NCBI RefSeq assembly: GCF_004365915.1
Contig: NZ_SODI01000001.1
Coordinates: forward strand, 3,162,001-3,226,000
Source: Cryobacterium psychrophilum
Lineage (GTDB): Bacteria > Actinomycetota > Actinomycetes > Actinomycetales > Microbacteriaceae
Direction of reading: 5' to 3'
Length of the DNA: 64,000 nucleotides
Shown: positions 19,496 through 28,826 of the stretch, in pieces
How the letters are laid out: every line of letters starts with the position of its first letter
Position numbering within the stretch: position 1 is the first letter of the stretch
Notes under the pieces: generated by a model
Told to the model about the DNA's origin: nothing
Database searches by the model: none
What the model saw: only the letters and a program-made list of their open reading frames with translations
Translations under genes and position numbers: made by a program

Positions 19496-20101
19496 TTACC
19501 GTCCGGCCGGGGCGATCGAAAACTCGAGCCCCACATCCACAGCCGGTTCGATTCGGGCTTCGATGACCTGGCCGATGACGGCGAGGTGCAGGACCATCGT
19601 TCCACCGGCCGTATCCACGAGGATCTGCGCCCCGCCGTGGGCAGTGAGGGTGATTATGCCGCCTTCCCCGGCGAATATGACCCGGCGGAGTTCTGCGACG
19701 TGTCGGAGGCCGACAACCACGTCATCACCCACGAATTCGATGAGCGGTCGTTTGGCGAAGGCAGGCATCCGTGGTTCGGTCCGTCCACGGCGAACACCGC
19801 CCGATGCGCGGCCCCGGGTCTCCCACGCGAAGTAGTTGACCCCGGTCACGGTCAACGACCCGATGGCTGACTGCCGCGCGGTCAGGCGGATGACGGGGAG
19901 CGCGGTGGTGAGGGTGACGGCTCCGGTGAGAACCGGTTTTGCGGGTACCGGCTGATGCTTCTCCGCTGCTTCCTCAGGGGTCGTGCTGAGGTCCAGGAAA
20001 TCGATCGTGGCGGGGGCCGGCGTCGTGTCGATCTCCCCCTGGCGGAGGCGTCGGCGCAGGAAGACGATGTCCGGCCGTGGGCTGAGCAGGTCGAGGCTCA
20101 C
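19496..20101 (-). CDS. TerA-like protein, probably with two compensating frameshifts
   Basis: A 201-residue product at the distal end of the leftward Ter arm. The second half resembles TerA/TerD-associated proteins: RLTARQSAIGSLTVTGVNYF, IEFVGDDVVVGLRHVAELRR and ITLTAHGGAQILVD are in a plausible order. Between them, over about 24 codons (19740-19812), the annotated frame reads an Arg-rich string (GRASGGVRRGRTEPRMP), whereas the frame one base away reads a much more protein-like AVFAVDGPNHGCLPSP with a higher G/C share at third positions. This suggests one shift and a second restoring shift. Its start overlaps the preceding terD-like gene by 4 bases. Function is inferred only from the cluster. 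Confidence 0.6.
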   Translation of the reverse strand: MSLDLLSPRPDIVFLRRRLRQGEIDTTPAPATIDFLDLSTTPEEAAEKHQPVPAKPVLTGAVTLTTALPVIRLTARQSAIGSLTVTGVNYFAWETRGRASGGVRRGRTEPRMPAFAKRPLIEFVGDDVVVGLRHVAELRRVIFAGEGGIITLTAHGGAQILVDTAGGTMVLHLAVIGQVIEARIEPAVDVGLEFSIAPAGR

Positions 20102-20649
20102 AGGGCCAGTCCGAAGCTGCGGGCAACACCGTCGATCCCGGTGGTGAACCCGTCACCCAGGGCCCGGAACTTCCACTCGCTCTTGTATCGGTACAGCTCG
20201 CCGAAGATCATGGCGGTGACAGTGGCGTCCGTACGCTCCAAATCGAACCGGAGGAGATCCTTGTCGTCACGGCCGGCGACACGGATGTAAGCGTTTCGGA
20301 CCGTGCTGAAACTCCCGGGTTTGCGGATGTCCGGGTCGACATAGACGACGAAGACTATCTTGCTGACGGTGTCGGGGACCAGGCTCAGGTTGACTTCGAT
20401 TTGTTCCTGGTCGCCTTTGGTGGTGTACCGGACGGCATCATCCGGGGTGGAGAGCTGGTTGAAGAACACCATGGAGTCGGGGGAGACGGCGTTGCCCGCA
20501 CTGTCACACAGGATGGCGGAGGGGACGAGTTCAGCGTCCGGGGCGCCTGAGGCGATGGTGGTCCAGCCGAACCCGATCAGGAGTTCGATGAGCAGCGGGT
20601 TCTCCGCGGTCAGCGGTGCGTTGCCGCCGGCTTGCATGTGAATACTCAT
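20098..20649 (-). CDS. TerD-family protein, divergent paralogue
   Basis: A 183-residue TerD-fold protein. Conserved structural segments are IELLIGFGWTT, PSAILCDSAGN, DSMVFFNQLSTPDDAVRY, the SLVPDTVSKIVFVVYVD strand and the ending ALGDGFTTGIDGVARSFGL. The calcium-binding DxDLDASAIL of standard TerD is replaced by APDAELVPSAIL, and the acidic GDGDDE loop is reduced to GDQEQI, so metal binding may be weakened or lost. It is co-directional with the other ter genes and overlaps the TerA-like gene. Its role is probably as part of the Ter membrane-associated complex. Confidence 0.85.
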   Translation of the reverse strand: MSIHMQAGGNAPLTAENPLLIELLIGFGWTTIASGAPDAELVPSAILCDSAGNAVSPDSMVFFNQLSTPDDAVRYTTKGDQEQIEVNLSLVPDTVSKIVFVVYVDPDIRKPGSFSTVRNAYIRVAGRDDKDLLRFDLERTDATVTAMIFGELYRYKSEWKFRALGDGFTTGIDGVARSFGLAL

Positions 20650-20676
20650 GGTGTTGAAGCCCGTCGTTGACGGCGG

Positions 20677-21147
20677 TCAGCCGTTGAACTTGTTCTGAAG
20701 GAAAATGGCATGGGTTTCGAGGGCCGACGCGGCGGTCACGATGATGGTCGCGCTCAGCCGCCGGGCGCTTGTCTCCAACGCGGTGAACTGCTCGTGGAGG
20801 AGGAGATCCGCCGGGTCGCCCGCCGTTTGATCTTCGGGGGGGAGGAGCAGAAACAGGCGAAGGGATGTCGGCACGTAGTCGGAGACGAGCGACTCGATGG
20901 CGATCTGGTCGGTGATGGGGACTGGATTGCCCGCGATGTACGCGAGCAGCGGCCGGATGACGTCATCGATGCTGCGGAGCTGGGAGAAAGCGGTTGTCGA
21001 GATCACGGCACCGGCGAGACGCGCGTCGGCGGCCAGAGTGTTGAGAGAGGCGGTGACTCGCTCGGTGAACGCAAGTTCCGGTTCCACCGGTGTCTCTACA
21101 CCGGTGTTCCCCTCGTGATTGCCGAACATCGTGGATAGCCAGCTCAC
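20677..21147 (-). CDS. Ter-cluster protein of unknown function, next to TelA
   Basis: I do not recognise a named domain in this 156-residue, mainly helical protein. It begins at GTG 21147 (MSWLSTMFGNHEG) with GGGGGAGG just upstream; the frame is open to 21252 but that would overlap telA. It contains an amphipathic middle (TAFSQLRSIDDVIRPLLAYI), LRLFLLLPPEDQ and a C-terminal helix ending in FLQNKFNG. It lies 28 bases after telA on the same strand. In Bacillus a TelA homologue is paired with the helical protein XpaC, so a TelA partner role is a fair guess, without shown homology. Confidence 0.7.
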   Translation of the reverse strand: MSWLSTMFGNHEGNTGVETPVEPELAFTERVTASLNTLAADARLAGAVISTTAFSQLRSIDDVIRPLLAYIAGNPVPITDQIAIESLVSDYVPTSLRLFLLLPPEDQTAGDPADLLLHEQFTALETSARRLSATIIVTAASALETHAIFLQNKFNG

Positions 21148-21175
21148 AGCCTCCCCCTTCGCGTCTTTGTTGGTC

Positions 21176-22393
21176 TCAGGAGCCCTGGACGTCTCCGGTG
21201 GTGGTCCCCTCAAGGCTGCGCGCGCGTTCCAGCTGCGGTTTTGCACGTTCAACCTGAGTGGTGATCTGGCCGATGCTTGTCGCCATCGAATCGTTCGCCT
21301 TCATGCGGAACGCATCAACCTCGTCCAGGGTGGAGAAGATGTCGTCGAAGGCCTTCGTCAGGACCTCCACAGAGATCGCCGGCGAGGACGCCTGCTCGTG
21401 AACGCGTGCCGTCTGCTGGTTCAACAGCGCGGACGTCGCGAGGATGGTGGCTTCGGTCGTTGATTTCATCGCGTCCAGCTGGTCAAGGACCAGGCGCTGG
21501 TTGTCGAGAGCGGCGGCAACAGTGATCGCCGTCTGCAGCGCGGTGAACGTGGTGGTGCGGGCACGTTCGACGCCCTTGATGAGCTCGACGTTGTTCTTTC
21601 GCACCAGTTCCATGGCCATATAAGCCTGAATCGAGACCGCGAGCTGGGTGAGCAGGTCCTGGTGGCGCTGACGAACGGTGAACAGCATGTCCGTTTCCAT
21701 CACGGACGCAGCCTGGACGTTGCCGGCCTGCTTCAACGTGGCGATCTGGGCGACCAGTTCGTTGTCGATGCCCTGGGCGAGGCTGATGTACTGGTTCAGC
21801 TGCCCCATCACATTCCACTGACTCTGCTTCTCCTGCTGCAAGGTGGCGTTGTCCTTGCCGAGCTCGTCCTGACCGGCTACCAACGATTTCATGATCGCGT
21901 TCAGCTGAGTCTGAGCGGATTCGTACTTCTGGAAGTAGTTGCGAATCTTCTTCCCGCCGAAGAGGTTCATGAATTTTTGCGGCGCTGTGAGATCCGCCGC
22001 GTTCGGTGTCAGGTCGCCGACAGTGGTCCGCAGCTGTGCGAGGGACGTGACGACCTTCTGGGTCGCGTCGCCCCCGCTCTTCTTTGCCCCGGAGACGCTG
22101 GTCACGGAACGCTCGAGGATGCGGTTGGTGCCGGCACCGGACGCGGTCACCTCGCTCTGACCGAGCGTCTGGACCTCCTGTAGTTTCGAGGCGAATTCAG
22201 GCGAGTTCGGGTTGACGGTGGTGAGGTCGGAGACGAAGCCTTTGGCTTGGTTGCCGATGACCAGAAGACGCTCGTTGGGGATGGGGGCGAGCATTTGCTG
22301 GGCGGCGGAGGGAGCGACCTCGGCAACGGGTTCAGGGGCAACGAGAACCGGCGCTGCGCCTGGTTCGTCTTCGGGGGCAAGCAACATAGCCAT
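21176..22393 (-). CDS. telA: TelA-family toxic anion resistance protein
   Basis: A 405-residue, almost entirely helical protein of the TelA family, which is linked to tellurite and other toxic-anion or envelope-stress resistance. After a Pro/Ala/Glu-rich N-terminus, long helices with coiled-coil character cover residues about 60-395, including FGGKKIRNYFQKYESAQTQLNAIM, the LVRKNNVELIKGVERARTTTFTALQTAITVA signature region and TLDEVDAFRMKANDSM. No membrane segment is seen, so it is probably cytoplasmic or membrane-peripheral. It sits in the middle of the leftward ter arm between terD and the unknown protein. Confidence 0.92.
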   Translation of the reverse strand: MAMLLAPEDEPGAAPVLVAPEPVAEVAPSAAQQMLAPIPNERLLVIGNQAKGFVSDLTTVNPNSPEFASKLQEVQTLGQSEVTASGAGTNRILERSVTSVSGAKKSGGDATQKVVTSLAQLRTTVGDLTPNAADLTAPQKFMNLFGGKKIRNYFQKYESAQTQLNAIMKSLVAGQDELGKDNATLQQEKQSQWNVMGQLNQYISLAQGIDNELVAQIATLKQAGNVQAASVMETDMLFTVRQRHQDLLTQLAVSIQAYMAMELVRKNNVELIKGVERARTTTFTALQTAITVAAALDNQRLVLDQLDAMKSTTEATILATSALLNQQTARVHEQASSPAISVEVLTKAFDDIFSTLDEVDAFRMKANDSMATSIGQITTQVERAKPQLERARSLEGTTTGDVQGS

Positions 22394-22428
22394 GAGGGTC
22401 CTTCGGTTGAGGGGTGGTGCGAGTTGTG

Positions 22429-22452
22429 CGGGGCCGGCTCGCGCCGACCCCG
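22429..22452 (-). other. Hairpin between terD and telA
   Basis: The arms CGGGGCCGGC and GCCGACCCCG pair over ten positions with one mismatch around a four-base loop. The hairpin lies in the 71-base spacer ahead of telA and has no T-run, so it is more likely an mRNA processing or stability element than a terminator. Confidence 0.4.
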
Positions 22453-22464
22453 TAGCGCGCGTGC

Positions 22465-23040
22465 TTAGAGGTTGACTCCGAAGTCGCGGGCGATGCCGCC
22501 AAGCCCATCGGTGTAGCCCTGGCCGACGGCCTTGAACTTCCAGTCGCCGTTGTGGCGGTAGACCTCAGCGAAGACGACGGCGTTCTCCGTGGCAACTTCC
22601 TCACCGAGCTCGTACTTCGCGATGTCAACCTGGGTGACGTCGTTGAGGATACGAACATAGGAGTTGCGGACCTGGCCGAAGTTCTGGTTACGCTCGGCCG
22701 CCGCGTCGATCGACACGACGATGACGACCTTGGCGATGTCGGCCGGAACCTTCGTCAGGTCCACGGTGATCTGCTCGTCGTCACCATCGCCGGCTCCGGT
22801 GCGGTTGTCACCCTGGTGGATAACACTGCCGGCCTCGTCGGACTTCTGGTTGTAGAAGATGAAGTCGGCGTCGGAGCGGACCTTGCCGTCGGCGGTGATG
22901 AGGATGGCGGAGGCGTCGAGGTCGAAGTCCGCGCCGTTGGTGGAACGGACGTCCCAGCCGAGGCCAACGCGTGCCTGGGTCAGGCCGGGGTCGGTCTTGG
23001 TGAGTGAGAGGTTGGCGCCTTTATCGAGGGTGAGAGTCAT
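22465..23040 (-). CDS. terD: TerD-family calcium-binding stress protein
   Basis: A canonical 191-residue TerD. It opens MTLTLDKGANLSLTKTDPG, has the calcium-binding segment GADFDLDASAILI and the acidic loop GAGDGDDEQITVDLTKVP, and ends in the conserved WKFKAVGQGYTDGLGGIARDFG. Family members bind Ca2+ and are thought to sense metal or membrane stress with TerC-like partners. The start is ATG 23040, matching the other paralogues; the frame is open to 23118. It is the full-length counterpart of the shortened paralogue just upstream. Confidence 0.95.
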   Translation of the reverse strand: MTLTLDKGANLSLTKTDPGLTQARVGLGWDVRSTNGADFDLDASAILITADGKVRSDADFIFYNQKSDEAGSVIHQGDNRTGAGDGDDEQITVDLTKVPADIAKVVIVVSIDAAAERNQNFGQVRNSYVRILNDVTQVDIAKYELGEEVATENAVVFAEVYRHNGDWKFKAVGQGYTDGLGGIARDFGVNL

Positions 23041-23063
23041 TGTGTCTTTCGTCGTGGTTGGTT

Positions 23064-23079
23064 GCCCCGAGTTCGGGGC
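23064..23079 (-). other. Hairpin between mini-terD and terD
   Basis: A perfect six-pair GC stem (GCCCCG with CGGGGC) with a four-base loop lies in the 117-base spacer ahead of terD. There is no T-run after it in the direction of transcription. It is similar in placement to the hairpin ahead of telA. Confidence 0.35.
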
Positions 23080-23157
23080 CTGATCGCTACATGCGCGGCA
23101 CCTGGTGCTTCTCTGCATTGAGCGTGCCTGGCGGGCATCCGCGGTCGAGCGGTGGAA

Positions 23158-23373
23158 CTAAATGTGGATTCCGTGGTCTCGGGCGATGCCGCCGAGTCCA
23201 TCGGTGTAGCCCTGGCCGTTGGCCCGGAACTTCCATTCTCCGCTGTGCTTGTAGATTTCGGCGAAGAGAACGGATTTCTCCACGGCGATTTCCTCACCGA
23301 CGCGGGCGTGGAGAAGCCCCGGGTCGCTCGTGGCCGGCGAGAGATTCCCGCCTTTTTCGAGGGTGAGGGTCAT
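23158..23373 (-). CDS. Internally deleted TerD paralogue (mini-TerD, 71 residues)
   Basis: This short frame matches the first 26 residues of TerD (MTLTLEKGGNLSPATSDPGL...ARVG) joined directly to its last 45 or so (EEIAVEKSVLFAEIYKHSGEWKFRANGQGYTDGLGGIARDHG). Compared with the intact terD downstream, exactly 120 codons are missing, removing the whole calcium-binding core, and the frame is kept. It has a good ribosome site (GAAGGAG) before two adjacent ATGs. It may be a non-functional remnant that still makes a peptide, or a small regulator that mimics TerD ends. The clean in-frame join is seen directly; the role is unknown. Confidence 0.8.
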   Translation of the reverse strand: MTLTLEKGGNLSPATSDPGLLHARVGEEIAVEKSVLFAEIYKHSGEWKFRANGQGYTDGLGGIARDHGIHI

Positions 23374-23410
23374 CATTCTCCTTCGTGAGGCTGACCTGTG
23401 GCGCGGTGGG

Positions 23411-24007
23411 TTACGCGGCGGCCTGAGCTTCGCCGATCAGGTCCGGCGCTTTCCGGCCGGTGGCCGAGTTGCCGAGGGCGGTAAACGTCCAGCCGGCGCC
23501 CGAGCGGGTGAGCTTGGCGATGACCGAGGCGGTCTTCTTGCCGGCGTCGGCGAGGTTGTAACGGACGACCTCGCTTTCGCGGCCAGTGGAATTGTCGACG
23601 ACGCGGGCGAAAACGTTGCGGACCTTGTCGAAGGTCTGACCCTGGAAGCTGGTCACCACCAGGACGATCGAGGTGACGTTGGAGCTGACCGCGGCCAGAT
23701 CGATGTTGATGCGCTCATCGTCGCCGTCGCCGTCCCCGGTCAGGTTGTCCCCGGAGTGGCGGATCGAGGCGTCCTTCGACTGCAACTGCTGGAACCAGAC
23801 GGTGTCCACCAGTTTGTTGTTGCTGTCGAGGAGGATGGCCGAGGCATCCAGGTCGATGTCGTCGCCGCCGCCGCCACCAAGCAGGGCTGCGAACAGGCCC
23901 TTCTTCGGTGCTGCGTCCCAGCCGAGGCCGAGGACGACCGCGGTCAGCGGGGTGGAGTCGGACTTGACGAGCGAGAGAGACTCGTGTTTGGACAGGCTAA
24001 GAGCCAT
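23411..24007 (-). CDS. TerD/TerZ-family protein
   Basis: A 198-residue TerD-fold protein, closer to TerZ-type paralogues than to the terD gene next to it. It opens MALSLSKHESLSLVKSD, carries a Gly-rich insertion (LLGGGGGDD) directly before the calcium-binding DIDLDASAILL, and has a strongly acidic loop DGDGDDERINIDLAAV. The end (WTFTALGNSATGRKAPDLIG) differs from the YTDGLGG tail of the others. Both acidic metal sites look intact. It is the second gene of the leftward arm, 55 bases after the DUF475 gene. Confidence 0.92.
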   Translation of the reverse strand: MALSLSKHESLSLVKSDSTPLTAVVLGLGWDAAPKKGLFAALLGGGGGDDIDLDASAILLDSNNKLVDTVWFQQLQSKDASIRHSGDNLTGDGDGDDERINIDLAAVSSNVTSIVLVVTSFQGQTFDKVRNVFARVVDNSTGRESEVVRYNLADAGKKTASVIAKLTRSGAGWTFTALGNSATGRKAPDLIGEAQAAA

Positions 24008-24062
24008 TGAGGGTTCCTTCTTCTTGGTTGGGGGTGCCGGACGCGGTTGCGCCAGCGAGGAG

Positions 24063-25217
24063 TTAGGGGGAGGTGATGAGGTCAGGCTCGGGTTCTTGAG
24101 CTGCAGCGAGTGCTTCCGCTGCGGCCGTCCTCTTGTTGGTGACGACCGACGAGATGAATGCGGCGCCGATCAGGAAGATGCCGATGAGGCCGGTGACGAG
24201 CTCAGGGACCTCGACGCCAATGCTGACGATGAGGATCGTGGCGAGAGCGCCAATGGCCCAATGGGCACCGTGGTCAAGATAGATGTAGTCGTTGAGCGTT
24301 CCCTGGCGGACGAGGAAGATCGTCAGCGATCGAACGAACATCGCACCGATGAGGCCAAGGCCCAGCAGGATGATGATCGGGTCCGAGGTGATCGCGAACG
24401 CACCGATGACACCGTCGAAAGAGAACGATGCATCGAGGACTTCGAGGTAGAGGAACGAGAAGAACGCTGCCTTCCCGACGAGGAGCGGCAGCCCGGCGGG
24501 GCCTCCACTCTTCTTGTCCAATTCCTCGGAGATGTCCTCTGAGGAACCGTGGATGCCGACGCTTTCGTCGCCATGCTCGCCGCCTTCGAACAGGGAGCCG
24601 AGGCCGTTGACGAGGATATAGGTGATGAGCCCGAGCACACCGGCGATCAGGACGACAGCCGGGCTCTCAGCGACCGAAGCGCTGGCGAGGAGGGTGCCGA
24701 GCGCGACGACGTAGGAGAGGGAGTCAAGCTGACCGACCTTGGCCAGCGGCTTCTCCAACCATGTCAGCCATTTGATGTCACGGTCTTCGAAAATGAAGTC
24801 CAGGAACAGCATCAGCAGGAACATGCCGCCGAAGGCCGCGATCTGCGGGTGCGCATCCTCGAGGTAATGGCCGTACGTTCCGACTGTTTCCGGGTCGCCC
24901 TTCTCGAGCGCCAGCGTGATGACTTCGTTGAAGTTCAGGCCAGTGGTGACGGAAACGAGGACGAGGGGCATGAGCAGGCGCATGCCGACGACGGCGATGA
25001 GGATGCCAACGGTGAGGAAGATCTTCTGCCAGAAGGCGGACATCTTCTCCAGTACGCGGGCGTTGACGACCGCGTTGTCGAAGGAGAGCGAGATCTCCAT
25101 CAGGCCGAGGATCACGACGAGGGCGAGGGCAGCCCAGCCGTTGTAAGCGAAGGCGACGACGAACGCTGCCAACGAAACGATGAGCGACCATTTGAAGGTG
25201 TCAAGGAAGGTTTTCAT
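24063..25217 (-). CDS. DUF475/TerC-like integral membrane protein
   Basis: A 384-residue membrane protein of the DUF475 family, a relative of TerC. About eight or nine hydrophobic segments are visible. Two copies of an acidic membrane motif mark the TerC relationship: GLMEISLSFDNAVVNARVL near residue 40 and FLYLEVLDASFSFDGVIGAF near residue 255, with Glu and Asp inside the bilayer suited to metal passage. A charged loop (GGEHGDESVGIHGSSED) and a Glu-rich tail lie on the surface. It is the first gene of the leftward ter arm and probably provides the membrane anchor for TerD-type proteins. Confidence 0.93.
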   Translation of the reverse strand: MKTFLDTFKWSLIVSLAAFVVAFAYNGWAALALVVILGLMEISLSFDNAVVNARVLEKMSAFWQKIFLTVGILIAVVGMRLLMPLVLVSVTTGLNFNEVITLALEKGDPETVGTYGHYLEDAHPQIAAFGGMFLLMLFLDFIFEDRDIKWLTWLEKPLAKVGQLDSLSYVVALGTLLASASVAESPAVVLIAGVLGLITYILVNGLGSLFEGGEHGDESVGIHGSSEDISEELDKKSGGPAGLPLLVGKAAFFSFLYLEVLDASFSFDGVIGAFAITSDPIIILLGLGLIGAMFVRSLTIFLVRQGTLNDYIYLDHGAHWAIGALATILIVSIGVEVPELVTGLIGIFLIGAAFISSVVTNKRTAAAEALAAAQEPEPDLITSP

Positions 25218-25446
25218 GTGGGGGTGCGAACTGTGCGGCTGAGCCGATCGGTCCGCGTCCTTTCTGATTGGGGAGTGAGCAGCGGGGTGCCAGCCGTGTG
25301 CACCTGCGCGACGCTCTGTGTTACGTATCGGACGCGATCCGCTAGGTCATCATTACCGGAAGCCCCTGCGCGGCACATCCGCCTTCGGTCGAGGGCCGTT
25401 GAATCGTGAAGCGCCGTTCGGTCCGTATGCCGCGCATTGCTATCCT
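25218..25446. promoter_or_regulatory. Divergent intergenic region of the Ter cluster
   Basis: This 229-base stretch separates the leftward ter arm from the rightward phosphoribosyltransferase-HAD arm, so it should hold both promoters. No operator palindrome or clear promoter boxes could be picked out by eye. The rightward frame is open through part of it (from 25318), but a start there would add about 43 low-quality residues. Confidence 0.5.
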
Positions 25447-28005
25447 ATGAAGGCCATGACTTCTGCCACTCCCGAACCCACCGAGCTGGCGAATCCGGTG
25501 TTCGGTGACCATTTTCGATCAACTTCGGCGCCGGCCACCCACGAACTCGGAGCCGGCCTTGTGCTGGAAACTATCGGGATGAGCATTGCCGCTTCTGAGG
25601 GGACGCTGAACTTCGGCATCATCTATGGTATCGCGTTGCGACGGAACCCAAGACGAGCGCATCTGCTGGTCTCGAAGGTGCTGGGTAAGCACTACCCACA
25701 GTCACCAGCGATCATCGAGGCGGCCGCGCGGGTTCTTGCGCTGCGCGTGCACGCTGAGCTCTCCTCCGGTGCGACACCCGACGTCAGGGAACTGCTCACC
25801 CGAGAGCTCGTCGAGGCGCTACGGGCACCGTTAATGCGCCACAAACTGTCTCACATCGATCTGCGTGACGTCGGGACGGGTGCCGTGGTTGTCGGATTCG
25901 CAGAAGCGGCGACGGCTCTTGGCGCGTGTGTCGCATCTGCTCTCGGGGCCTACTATGTCAGCTCAACGCGATACCCGGGTCCGACCAGCCCCAGCTACGG
26001 CGCTTTCGAGGAGGAACACTCGCATGCATCCGCGCATCATTTGACCCCCAGGGATCGGCAAACCCTTGATGACACCTCCGCAACTGTCATCCTCGTCGAT
26101 GACGAACTGACGACGGGTAAGACCATCATTAACACCATTCGCATGCTTCACGCGACCGCTACCCATGCCGCATATATCGTCGCGACGTTGGCGGATCTTC
26201 GTGACGCCGGGTCGCGAACGGCGCTGGACGAGGTCGCCAGTGAGCTCGGAGTAACGATCCGCGTCGTTGCGCTGTTCGACGGGGAGCTCACGGTCCCCGA
26301 TTCCGCCGTCGCCAGTGCCCAGCCCTTACTCACCCGTCTTCTCCGCACCGAACGGGAGGTATCCGGCGGTGACGCCGCCGTCACTGTGATCAGTTACCCA
26401 CACGCGGCGCCACACCCCCGTGATGGGATTCGGACATTCGACGAGCTCAACGTGATCGCCGAGACTCTGACCGGCCAGCTCGCCGGGATTGGCACCGGAA
26501 ACACTCTCGTACTCGGAGTCGAGGAGGACATGTTCCTGCCCCTTCGTGTTGCGTCCCTCCTCGAAGAACGCAGCGTTGACCCGGTGGTCTTCGGCGCCAC
26601 CACACGCTCACCAGCATTCGCCCATGATCATCCTGACTACGGCATCCTCGACCGACTCGATTACACCGTCCCTGAGGTCCCCGGCGATACTGCACGTCGC
26701 TTCGCATACAACCTGGGGCACACCTACGACAGTGTGGTCATCATTACGGCCAGCGCCGCTGACACGGGCAAACTGGCCGCCACCGCAACCAGTCTGCTTG
26801 ACGCTCTGTCTCAGCGAACGAAAAACATCGTCATTATGGAAGCCGCCGCACCCGTCAAACGGCTCGGCGAACCCCTGACCGGTCCCGTCTTCGGATCCTA
26901 CAAACCGGAAGATGTCTCCTGGCTCCTCAAAGACCTCTCCGACGTGGTGCTGGAGACAAACCTGGAGGATCGGGAGGTAGCGGTCCAAAACGGTTCCCAT
27001 TACGCGGAATCACTTCCTCTGGAATACCAGCCCTCCGCGGAATACCAGTCTCTTTTCGACGAGTCGCTGAACGCCACCAGGGATGCGCTGGCATTTCACG
27101 TGGCGGTTGTCGCCGAGCAGATCTACCACCTCCGTGAAGGCAACCCTGTACTTCTGTCCCTGGCCAGGGCCGGCACCCCCATCGGCGTGCTCATCCGTCG
27201 GTATCTGCACGCCGCTTATGGGATCGACACCCCGCACTACGCTCTTTCCATCGTCCGCGGCCGCGGCATCGATGCCAACGCCCTCACGTACGTCAGTGAG
27301 CACCACGACCCTCGCCTCGTCATGTTCGTGGACGGGTGGACCGGCAAGGGGGCCATCGTCCGTGAGCTCACGGATGCCCTCAAAGACTACGAGAACGCCA
27401 CGGGCGTTCGCTTCCGCCCTGAACTCGCCGTCCTCGCCGACCCCGGTTCGTGCGTGAGCGTCTACGGCACGCGGGAGGACTACCTCATCCCCTCGGCCGG
27501 ACTCAACTCGACAGTCTCGGGTCTTGTCTCGCGGACAGTGCTCAATGAGCATCTCATCGGCCCTGATGACTTCCACGGGGCGAAATTCTACCGAGAGTTC
27601 ACCGACGTGGACGTCTCCAACTTCTTCGTCGACACCGTGTCCACTCTCTTCACCGCGGAGCTCATCGCCCGCGCCCGTTTCGCCAACAGTCGTCGACACG
27701 GGGAAGAGCCGAACTGGTCGGGGTGGAAGGCCGTCGAACGCATCAGCACCGAATACGGAATCAACAACGTGAACCTGGTGAAACCCGGGGTTGGCGAAAC
27801 CACTCGTGTTCTCCTGCGGCGGGTGCCCTGGAAGATCCTGGTTCGCCCCGACGCCGGGGCGAGCATTGCACACATCCGCCTCCTCGCAGCTGGCCGGGGG
27901 GTCCCCATCGAACCTGTCGACGGGCTCCCTTTCATGGCGGTTGGCCTCATTCACCCGCAGCTCAGTCCCGGCGCCACCGGGTTCGACGGACGCAAAGCCT
28001 CATGA
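25447..28005 (+). CDS. Fused double phosphoribosyltransferase of the Ter pathway (PRTase-TRSP-like plus PRTase-PELOTA-like)
   Basis: An 852-residue protein with two phosphoribosyltransferase (PRTase) modules. The first has the PRPP loop VILVDDELTTGKTIINTI (residues about 214-231) and is followed by a domain (about 300-450) resembling the TRSP domain of Ter-linked PRTases (TLVLGVEEDMFLPLRVASLLEE). The second (about 480-760) has LLSLARAGTPIGVLIRRYLH and a variant PRPP loop MFVDGWTGKGAIVREL (626-641), as in the StiP-like group. The C-terminus (about 785-840) resembles a PELOTA-type RNA-binding domain (VLLRRVPWKILVRPDAG). The two modules are usually separate genes. ATG 25447 is chosen; ATG 25456 is an alternative. 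It overlaps the HAD gene by 4 bases. Confidence 0.85.
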   Translation: MKAMTSATPEPTELANPVFGDHFRSTSAPATHELGAGLVLETIGMSIAASEGTLNFGIIYGIALRRNPRRAHLLVSKVLGKHYPQSPAIIEAAARVLALRVHAELSSGATPDVRELLTRELVEALRAPLMRHKLSHIDLRDVGTGAVVVGFAEAATALGACVASALGAYYVSSTRYPGPTSPSYGAFEEEHSHASAHHLTPRDRQTLDDTSATVILVDDELTTGKTIINTIRMLHATATHAAYIVATLADLRDAGSRTALDEVASELGVTIRVVALFDGELTVPDSAVASAQPLLTRLLRTEREVSGGDAAVTVISYPHAAPHPRDGIRTFDELNVIAETLTGQLAGIGTGNTLVLGVEEDMFLPLRVASLLEERSVDPVVFGATTRSPAFAHDHPDYGILDRLDYTVPEVPGDTARRFAYNLGHTYDSVVIITASAADTGKLAATATSLLDALSQRTKNIVIMEAAAPVKRLGEPLTGPVFGSYKPEDVSWLLKDLSDVVLETNLEDREVAVQNGSHYAESLPLEYQPSAEYQSLFDESLNATRDALAFHVAVVAEQIYHLREGNPVLLSLARAGTPIGVLIRRYLHAAYGIDTPHYALSIVRGRGIDANALTYVSEHHDPRLVMFVDGWTGKGAIVRELTDALKDYENATGVRFRPELAVLADPGSCVSVYGTREDYLIPSAGLNSTVSGLVSRTVLNEHLIGPDDFHGAKFYREFTDVDVSNFFVDTVSTLFTAELIARARFANSRRHGEEPNWSGWKAVERISTEYGINNVNLVKPGVGETTRVLLRRVPWKILVRPDAGASIAHIRLLAAGRGVPIEPVDGLPFMAVGLIHPQLSPGATGFDGRKAS

Positions 28006-28826
28006 GCGCACTTCCGGCCATTTTCTTCGCCGATCTGGACGCGACCACGATCTACTCCAAACGCCATCTCAGCGCCGACCCGGACCGGTACACCGGCATG
28101 ACGTGCGTGGAAACGTTCCGGGAAGAGCCGCAGTCATTCATGACCTACCGTGCGGTCCGTCAGCTTGGTGCGCTGAGCCGAGAACTAACTTTTGTCCCCA
28201 CAACCACACGGGATGTCACCCAGTTCAATCGGATCCGCCTTCCCGGTGTCAAGACCACGTACGCGATCGTCGCGAATGGGGGGCGAATTCTGGTGGACGG
28301 TATAGAGGATCCCGCCTGGACCCGGGTGGTTCAGGAGCGCCTGGCCGCGGTCGCACCCCTGAACACCATCCTCGAAGAAATCACGCGGAAGCTTCAGCAT
28401 GAGACCTGGGTGAAGACGATCAGCCGACCGGCGGACCTCTTCGCCTGCGTCAACGCGCACGCTGAAACGCCGGCATGGTTCGTTGAGTGGGCCGACAGCC
28501 GGGCAGCGCGGTGGCGGTGTCGCATCTCGTCCCAGGGTCGCAAGACCTTCATCGTTCCGTTCGGAATCTCCAAGGAGAGCGCTGCGGCGGAGGTGGTCCG
28601 ACGTACAGGCGCGGACGTCACTTTTGCGTCGGGCGATTCGACACTCGATGAAGGACTGATGAAGTTCGCGGATTATGCCATCCACCCGAGACACGGGGCG
28701 CTTAACGTTCGGGCTCCCTATTTTGATGAAACAGTCCGATCCGGCATCACGGCGGGGGAGGAGATTCTCACCTATGTTTCCTCGCGCCTTGAGCGGATCG
28801 TGAAGGACCGGCCTCGGGCCGTTTGA
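28002..28826 (+). CDS. HAD-family phosphatase of the Ter pathway
   Basis: A 274-residue HAD hydrolase. Motif I is FFADLDATTIY (D-x-D-x-T), motif II is in LTFVPTTTRD, the motif III lysine is probably in GISKESAAAEVV, and motif IV is FASGDSTLDEGLM. The layout is that of Cof/sucrose-phosphatase-like enzymes. In the published Ter pathway model, a HAD enzyme of this kind removes phosphate from a phosphoribosylated product. The start overlaps the stop of the double PRTase gene (ATGA), so the two are translationally coupled. Confidence 0.9.
   Translation: MSALPAIFFADLDATTIYSKRHLSADPDRYTGMTCVETFREEPQSFMTYRAVRQLGALSRELTFVPTTTRDVTQFNRIRLPGVKTTYAIVANGGRILVDGIEDPAWTRVVQERLAAVAPLNTILEEITRKLQHETWVKTISRPADLFACVNAHAETPAWFVEWADSRAARWRCRISSQGRKTFIVPFGISKESAAAEVVRRTGADVTFASGDSTLDEGLMKFADYAIHPRHGALNVRAPYFDETVRSGITAGEEILTYVSSRLERIVKDRPRAV

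Follow-up and report, generated by a model that had tools for sequence, protein, structure and literature searches.

The Ter pathway, which belongs to the bacterial response to tellurite and stress, is predicted to make a nucleotide-like product, according to the accessible parts of two papers (PMC7824862, PMC5512222). In the two plasmids and the phage compared here its enzymes are encoded by separate genes. The order on an Escherichia coli plasmid is ATP-grasp, PRTase_2-TRSP, HAD, StiP-PELOTA and C-C lyase; a Pseudomonas plasmid, with genes identified mostly by annotation, matches this order except for an extra gene between ATP-grasp and PRTase_2-TRSP. Acinetobacter phage vB_AbaM_ME3 carries TerD, PRTase_2, HAD and StiP-PELOTA, the last three as separate genes; its PRTase_2 protein has no TRSP match, and no ATP-grasp or lyase match was found in the fetched stretch. 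Here we describe a locus in Cryobacterium psychrophilum, in a stretch of 64,000 nucleotides (contig NZ_SODI01000001.1, positions 3,162,001 to 3,226,000; hereafter the window), where the two modules PRTase_2-TRSP and StiP-PELOTA form a single gene.

The window shares PRTase_2, TRSP, StiP, PELOTA_1, HAD and the TerD/TerC neighbours with the plasmid operons. In the plasmid operons the HAD gene lies between the modules, whereas in the window the modules are fused and the HAD gene follows the fusion. The plasmid operons also hold ATPgrasp_Ter and C-C_Bond_Lyase, and neither Ter-type gene was found in the window's genome. An earlier note, made from the DNA letters of the window alone, had described the modules as distinct genes in Ter systems, and this is so in the two plasmids and phage ME3, the three records outside actinobacteria in which the fusion was looked at. 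In the fusion, which it recognised correctly, a known gene pair is in a state common among actinobacteria; this makes it an ordinary variant. We consider it probable that the gene encodes a fused actinobacterial form of the core enzymes of this predicted pathway and works with an overlapping HAD phosphatase. The fused gene, its parts and the phosphatase gene are as follows (PRPP, phosphoribosyl pyrophosphate; PRTase, phosphoribosyltransferase).

25447..28005, + strand: fused gene, PRTase_2-TRSP-StiP-PELOTA, 852 residues; open frame with four Pfam domains above cut-off
25627..26286, + strand: PRTase_2 domain, residues 61-280 (Pfam)
26095..26124, + strand: canonical PRPP loop VDDELTTGKT, residues 217-226, read in the translation
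26452..26802, + strand: TRSP domain, residues 336-452 (Pfam PF12500), with the motif TTRSP at 385-389 read in the translation
26809..26874, + strand: fusion junction or short linker, about residues 455-476; halves in frame, no stop
26893..27639, + strand: StiP domain, residues 483-731, predicted type I PRTase fold (Pfam PF11202; AlphaFold model; PyrR/HGPRT matches)
27328..27351, + strand: StiP loop VDGWTGKG, residues 628-635; DGW in 47 of 47 aligned StiP rows
27715..27954, + strand: PELOTA_1 (L7Ae-like RNA-binding) domain, residues 757-836 (Pfam)
28002..28826, + strand: HAD-type phosphatase gene, 274 residues, identified by BLAST similarity; its ATG overlaps the TGA stop of the fusion by 4 bp

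The 852 residues are read as one unbroken frame; the open frame given for this gene in the parent genome has 908 residues. Pfam matches were judged against the curated cut-offs. PRTase_2 (PF15609) scored 190.1 bits against a cut-off of 28.8 (E 3.7e-56), TRSP (PF12500) 71.3 against 25 (E 8.6e-20), StiP (PF11202) 342.6 against 28.7 (E 1.4e-102) and PELOTA_1 (PF15608) 109.9 against 25 (E 5.2e-32); since all four exceed their cut-offs, the assignment of domains is not due to chance. The TRSP domain is C-terminal to PRTase_2 and contains the TRSP motif, and with the PELOTA tail it confirms the layout that the earlier note had read from the translation. Both of the loop segments named there are also in the frame, VDDELTTGKT at 217-226 and MFVDGWTGKG at 626-635. 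An anti-phage library gave no match, and NCBIfam a single one under the cut-off.

The frequency of the fusion was assessed in 101 loci, namely 80 from one set, 20 from another and the window; the set of 80 was chosen from 85 loci as those most similar to the window's protein, and the resulting shares are therefore not those of a random sample. Both halves are present in 100 of these loci, fused in 30 (window included) and separate in 70, and the remaining locus (L087) has the second half only. Fused loci include those of Arthrobacter, Sinomonas, Nocardioides, Tomitella, Geodermatophilaceae, Pseudonocardiales and one Actinomadura. In one Actinomadura locus (L084) the PRTase_2-TRSP half is spread over two frames, and in a metagenome-assembled genome of Geodermatophilaceae (L031:2475-5771) HAD is also in frame, giving PRTase_2-TRSP-StiP-PELOTA-HAD in 1099 residues as read. 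One genus of large genomes (g91) has the fusion in all nine regions read, from 9 of its 11 matches. The other actinobacterial fusions have the same domains in the same order and frame (two confirmed by Pfam), and 27 of them share 41-50% identity with the window's copy. Because 29 other loci hold both halves in one stop-free frame, we judge a frameshift or a bad assembly join between the halves, which the earlier note had raised as a way to explain the fusion, to be unlikely. By that note's own account, a fusion common across actinobacteria would speak against its reading, and with 30 fused pairs among 100 this is the case.

Closer to the window, 26 of 398 genomes of its family, Microbacteriaceae, have the protein, and 4 of these 26, window included, have one match that runs across both halves. 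StiP was matched in 6 of 57 Cryobacterium genomes, the other five of which carry separate genes, in 93 of 394 genomes of the class and in 20 of 396 of the phylum. A distant family of the phylum has, in three genomes (L025-L027), partial StiP matches that cover about positions 42-202 out of 245 in the profile. A tree of the StiP half requires 10 changes of the fused label, at least 7 of them forced by well-supported (starred) branches, so the fusion is not unique to one lineage; the tree has 67 rows, was made by a quick method and does not distinguish gain of the fusion from its loss. A literature search, with the founding 2012 Ter paper outside its scope, recognised no publication on the fusion, and we make no claim to a first report.

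The gene order in actinobacterial loci is lyase, PRTase_2-TRSP, StiP-PELOTA, HAD. The two modules thus adjoin and can fuse. Among the 70 separate pairs, the StiP gene is in the same relative frame in 69. In 67 pairs a StiP start codon overlaps the upstream stop by exactly 4 bp, and in 60 pairs it is the only start codon within 60 nt. This is a count of candidate StiP starts, and with TGA at 69 of the 70 upstream stops a fitting frame already makes such a start likely. With the start so placed, a short indel at the overlap could make or break the fusion. We read fused and separate genes as two interchangeable states of a closely coupled pair. The earlier note's suggestion of fixed stoichiometry or channelling is not decidable from sequence, and the fusion may add little, because most of the unfused pairs already look translationally coupled.

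Both modules are predicted from models to have a type I PRTase fold. The predicted fold of PRTase_2 is like that of adenine phosphoribosyltransferase (APRT), and its acidic PRPP loop (DD...TG) is intact, with D218, D219, E220, T223, G224 and T226 each present in 99% of 99 aligned rows. For StiP-PELOTA, an AlphaFold model of residues 471-852 (predicted local distance difference test score 87.2, predicted template modelling score 0.89) matches phosphoribosyltransferases of the PyrR and hypoxanthine-guanine (HGPRT) type, PyrR being the best among the matches ranked by Foldseek. At the PRPP-loop position, the StiP rows have D-G-W and lack the vicinal DD; the alignment includes actinobacteria, one E. 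coli plasmid, one Pseudomonas plasmid, phage ME3 and a gut phage scaffold. The D-G-W loop, to judge from this alignment, is a family trait of StiP and not an alteration peculiar to the window's protein, as the earlier note had supposed. The description of the gene as two fused phosphoribosyltransferases stands as to the fusion and the predicted folds; as to the name, Pfam calls the second module StiP, ‘Tellurite-like stress resistance cysteine protease’, and gives it no phosphoribosyltransferase name. The StiP family was formerly named PRTase_1.

Sequence searches reach less far than the models. The whole protein had only weak matches among solved structures (APRT from E 0.063). A StiP-PELOTA profile gave seven matches in the PDB up to E 10, six of L7Ae type (from E 0.035) and one aminotransferase, and thus no PyrR or purine phosphoribosyltransferase. 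In a separate profile alignment, TRSP (26452-26802) against PRTase_2 gave E 0.077 with a probability below 1%, which is not significant; at most it suggests TRSP as a possible degenerate repeat.

The phosphatase gene of the window has no Pfam match of its own, but BLAST shows similarity to the Ter-cluster HAD genes of E. coli (E 7e-9) and Pseudomonas (E 4e-9). With this gene as the query, HAD was matched in 97 of 100 loci. The exceptions are three Nocardioides loci, in which a PfkB-family kinase gene stands directly after the fusion (L040:8271-9131, L041:8277-9134 and L042:8325-9164) and no HAD or lyase was matched. These three apart, fusion, overlapping genes and the absence of other partners mark PRTase_2, StiP and HAD as a lasting group.

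A C-C lyase gene, searched with a set of four queries of which two came from the same loci, is present within the fetched stretch in 92 of 100 loci and in 25 of the 30 fused ones. The eight loci without a match are L037, L056 and L098 (almost no upstream sequence), L077, the three Nocardioides and the window. In the window the best CitE-like lyase match (E 0.010) is on the opposite strand inside the fused gene and is taken as chance; the whole genome yielded none with a relative's protein, one of the four queries, in a search that had no positive control. The genome does contain one partial PF15617 match at a distant site (32.7 bits, cut-off 28.4), with no similarity to the lyase of the relatives. 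For ATPgrasp_Ter the best score in the genome, 24.9 bits, is below the cut-off of 29.1 and lies elsewhere in the genome, and the ATP-grasp proteins of the E. coli and Pseudomonas plasmids have no match in the actinobacterial loci at E 1e-6. On an unannotated gut phage scaffold (MT836648.1, L132:7104-8126), StiP-PELOTA is 44% identical to that of the window, with a lyase-like match beside it on the opposite strand and a TerD match.

Upstream of the fusion, the window contains a block of Ter genes on the opposite strand:

25218..25446, no strand: 229-bp divergent gap from terC to the fusion; relatives have a CitE-like lyase gene ahead of PRTase_2
24063..25217, - strand: TerC/DUF475 membrane protein gene (Pfam PF04332, E 5.6e-120; PF03741, E 1e-14)
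23411..24007, - strand: TerD-domain gene (Pfam PF02342, E 2.9e-45)
22465..23118, - strand: TerD-domain gene (Pfam PF02342, E 1.6e-79)
21176..22393, - strand: TelA gene (Pfam PF05816, E 9.3e-73)
20677..21252, - strand: Ter-neighbour gene of no Pfam family; tblastn matches in 5 of 5 genus-mate loci
20098..20649, - strand: TerD-domain gene (Pfam PF02342, E 1.7e-48)
19496..20101, - strand: Ter-neighbour gene of no Pfam family, beside CitE in genus mates; tblastn matches in 5 of 5 genus-mate loci

The two genes of no Pfam family recur beside TelA/TerD in all five genus-mate clusters. In the five genus mates, TelA and TerD are on the strand of the module pair, whereas in the window the block 19496-25446 is on the opposite strand; an inversion, with the lyase gene lost, would account for the difference. 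The G+C content of the cluster (19496-28826) is 62.8%, versus 66.4% in the rest of the window, and third-position G+C is 72.5% in the fused gene versus 80-83% in six other genes of the window. Both of the lower values are compatible with a foreign origin.

The proposed role can be set out in steps. PRTase_2-TRSP, with its APRT-like fold and intact DD-TG loop, most likely transfers phosphoribose from PRPP to a base-like acceptor. StiP, with a PRTase fold, a shortened single-acid loop and the PELOTA domain, most likely performs or controls a second, non-canonical phosphoribosyl step, and the overlapping HAD phosphatase would then remove the 5'-phosphate. Here we infer the substrates, the order of the steps, the product and the link to TerD/TerC; the domains, the frame, the predicted folds, the gene order and the repeated change between fused and separate genes are what the comparison gives directly.

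Several points weigh against this proposal. StiP is without the second acid of the DD pair and so may not use PRPP. The profile alignment of PRTase_2 with StiP, made from low-diversity alignments, is not significant (E 0.24); a kinship of the two halves was therefore not upheld at the level of sequence and rests on predicted fold alone. The window's copy forms a long branch of unsure placement on the StiP tree, and among the 280 columns in which 90% or more of the other rows agree, it differs at 37; it may thus be specialised or weakening. Finally, a literature search, in the accessible parts of its sources, found no measured activity for any Ter-pathway enzyme.

The missing acid also speaks for an alternative that we hold to be rather unlikely, in which StiP would be a dead phosphoribosyltransferase serving as a PyrR-like regulator or RNA-binding scaffold, with only PRTase_2 and HAD catalytic. 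PyrR is the top Foldseek match, and a reference title calls it both an RNA-binding attenuation protein and a phosphoribosyltransferase; a PELOTA/L7Ae-like domain follows StiP, and the DD pair is D-G in every aligned row. Ten polar residues (S571, H597, S601, D609, D629, D665, D678, S691, S695 and R696) are nevertheless shared without exception by the actinobacterial, two plasmid and two phage proteins aligned, which suggests that an active site has been kept.

If StiP is catalytic, a possible parallel is CriT/CrpP of the Bcs3 capsule polymerase, whose structure 8a0c_B has the highest structural Z for the StiP model (12.1). According to the accessible part of PMC10299916, this polymerase pairs a PRPP-dependent ribofuranosyltransferase of PRTase fold with a HAD phosphatase that removes the 5-phosphate, and the acids of CriT are split between loops 1 and 3. 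The loop of PyrR and the purine phosphoribosyltransferases has D-D, in contrast to the D-G-W of StiP with its added PELOTA domain; unlike CriT, StiP has no acid in loop 1 (SLARAG), loops here being equated by sequence position and not by superposition. Since the StiP profile also had no CriT match in the PDB, the likeness, drawn by analogy, is one of logic and not of membership. By that logic StiP could be a PRPP-dependent ribosyltransferase with an acceptor other than a base, possibly the product of the first module or RNA held by PELOTA, with HAD trimming the 5'-phosphate. We regard this version as unlikely as it stands. If true, the Ter signal would be either a nucleoside that is ribosylated twice and dephosphorylated, or a ribosylated RNA, and PRTase_2, StiP and HAD would form a minimal three-enzyme core without lyase or ATP-grasp.

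It is quite improbable that the window's copy is a decaying or specialised remnant. Such a fate would fit the missing lyase gene, the orientation of the Ter block unlike that in the five genus mates, the departures at near-invariant columns with the long branch, and the lower G+C of the cluster and of third positions in the fused gene. Against it, both frames are open, the HAD overlap is kept and all four domains score far above their cut-offs; phage ME3 likewise has no lyase match in its fetched stretch.

That the second half is a cysteine protease, so that the fusion would join a phosphoribosyltransferase to a protease, is very unlikely: the Pfam name, the same product name on 36 plasmid records among the 40 listed (2567 had a match) and a Cys at C669 in 40 of 47 rows speak for it, but no Cys column is invariant (C669 40, C685 41 and C831 43 rows), the window's protein has no Cys at the C685 and C831 columns, one Nocardioides row has none in the whole StiP domain, the predicted fold is that of a phosphoribosyltransferase, and the literature searched, in its accessible parts, gave no stated basis, one paper merely listing the name.

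For the family, then, the name ‘cysteine protease’ is not backed by residue conservation or by the predicted fold of StiP. The pathway product is still treated as a prediction in the accessible parts of the literature, and that no Ter-type lyase or ATP-grasp was found in this genome adds to the compactness of the system. The fusion itself is ordinary; with both modules on one polypeptide and an overlapping phosphatase, the locus is a compact object for finding the Ter product.
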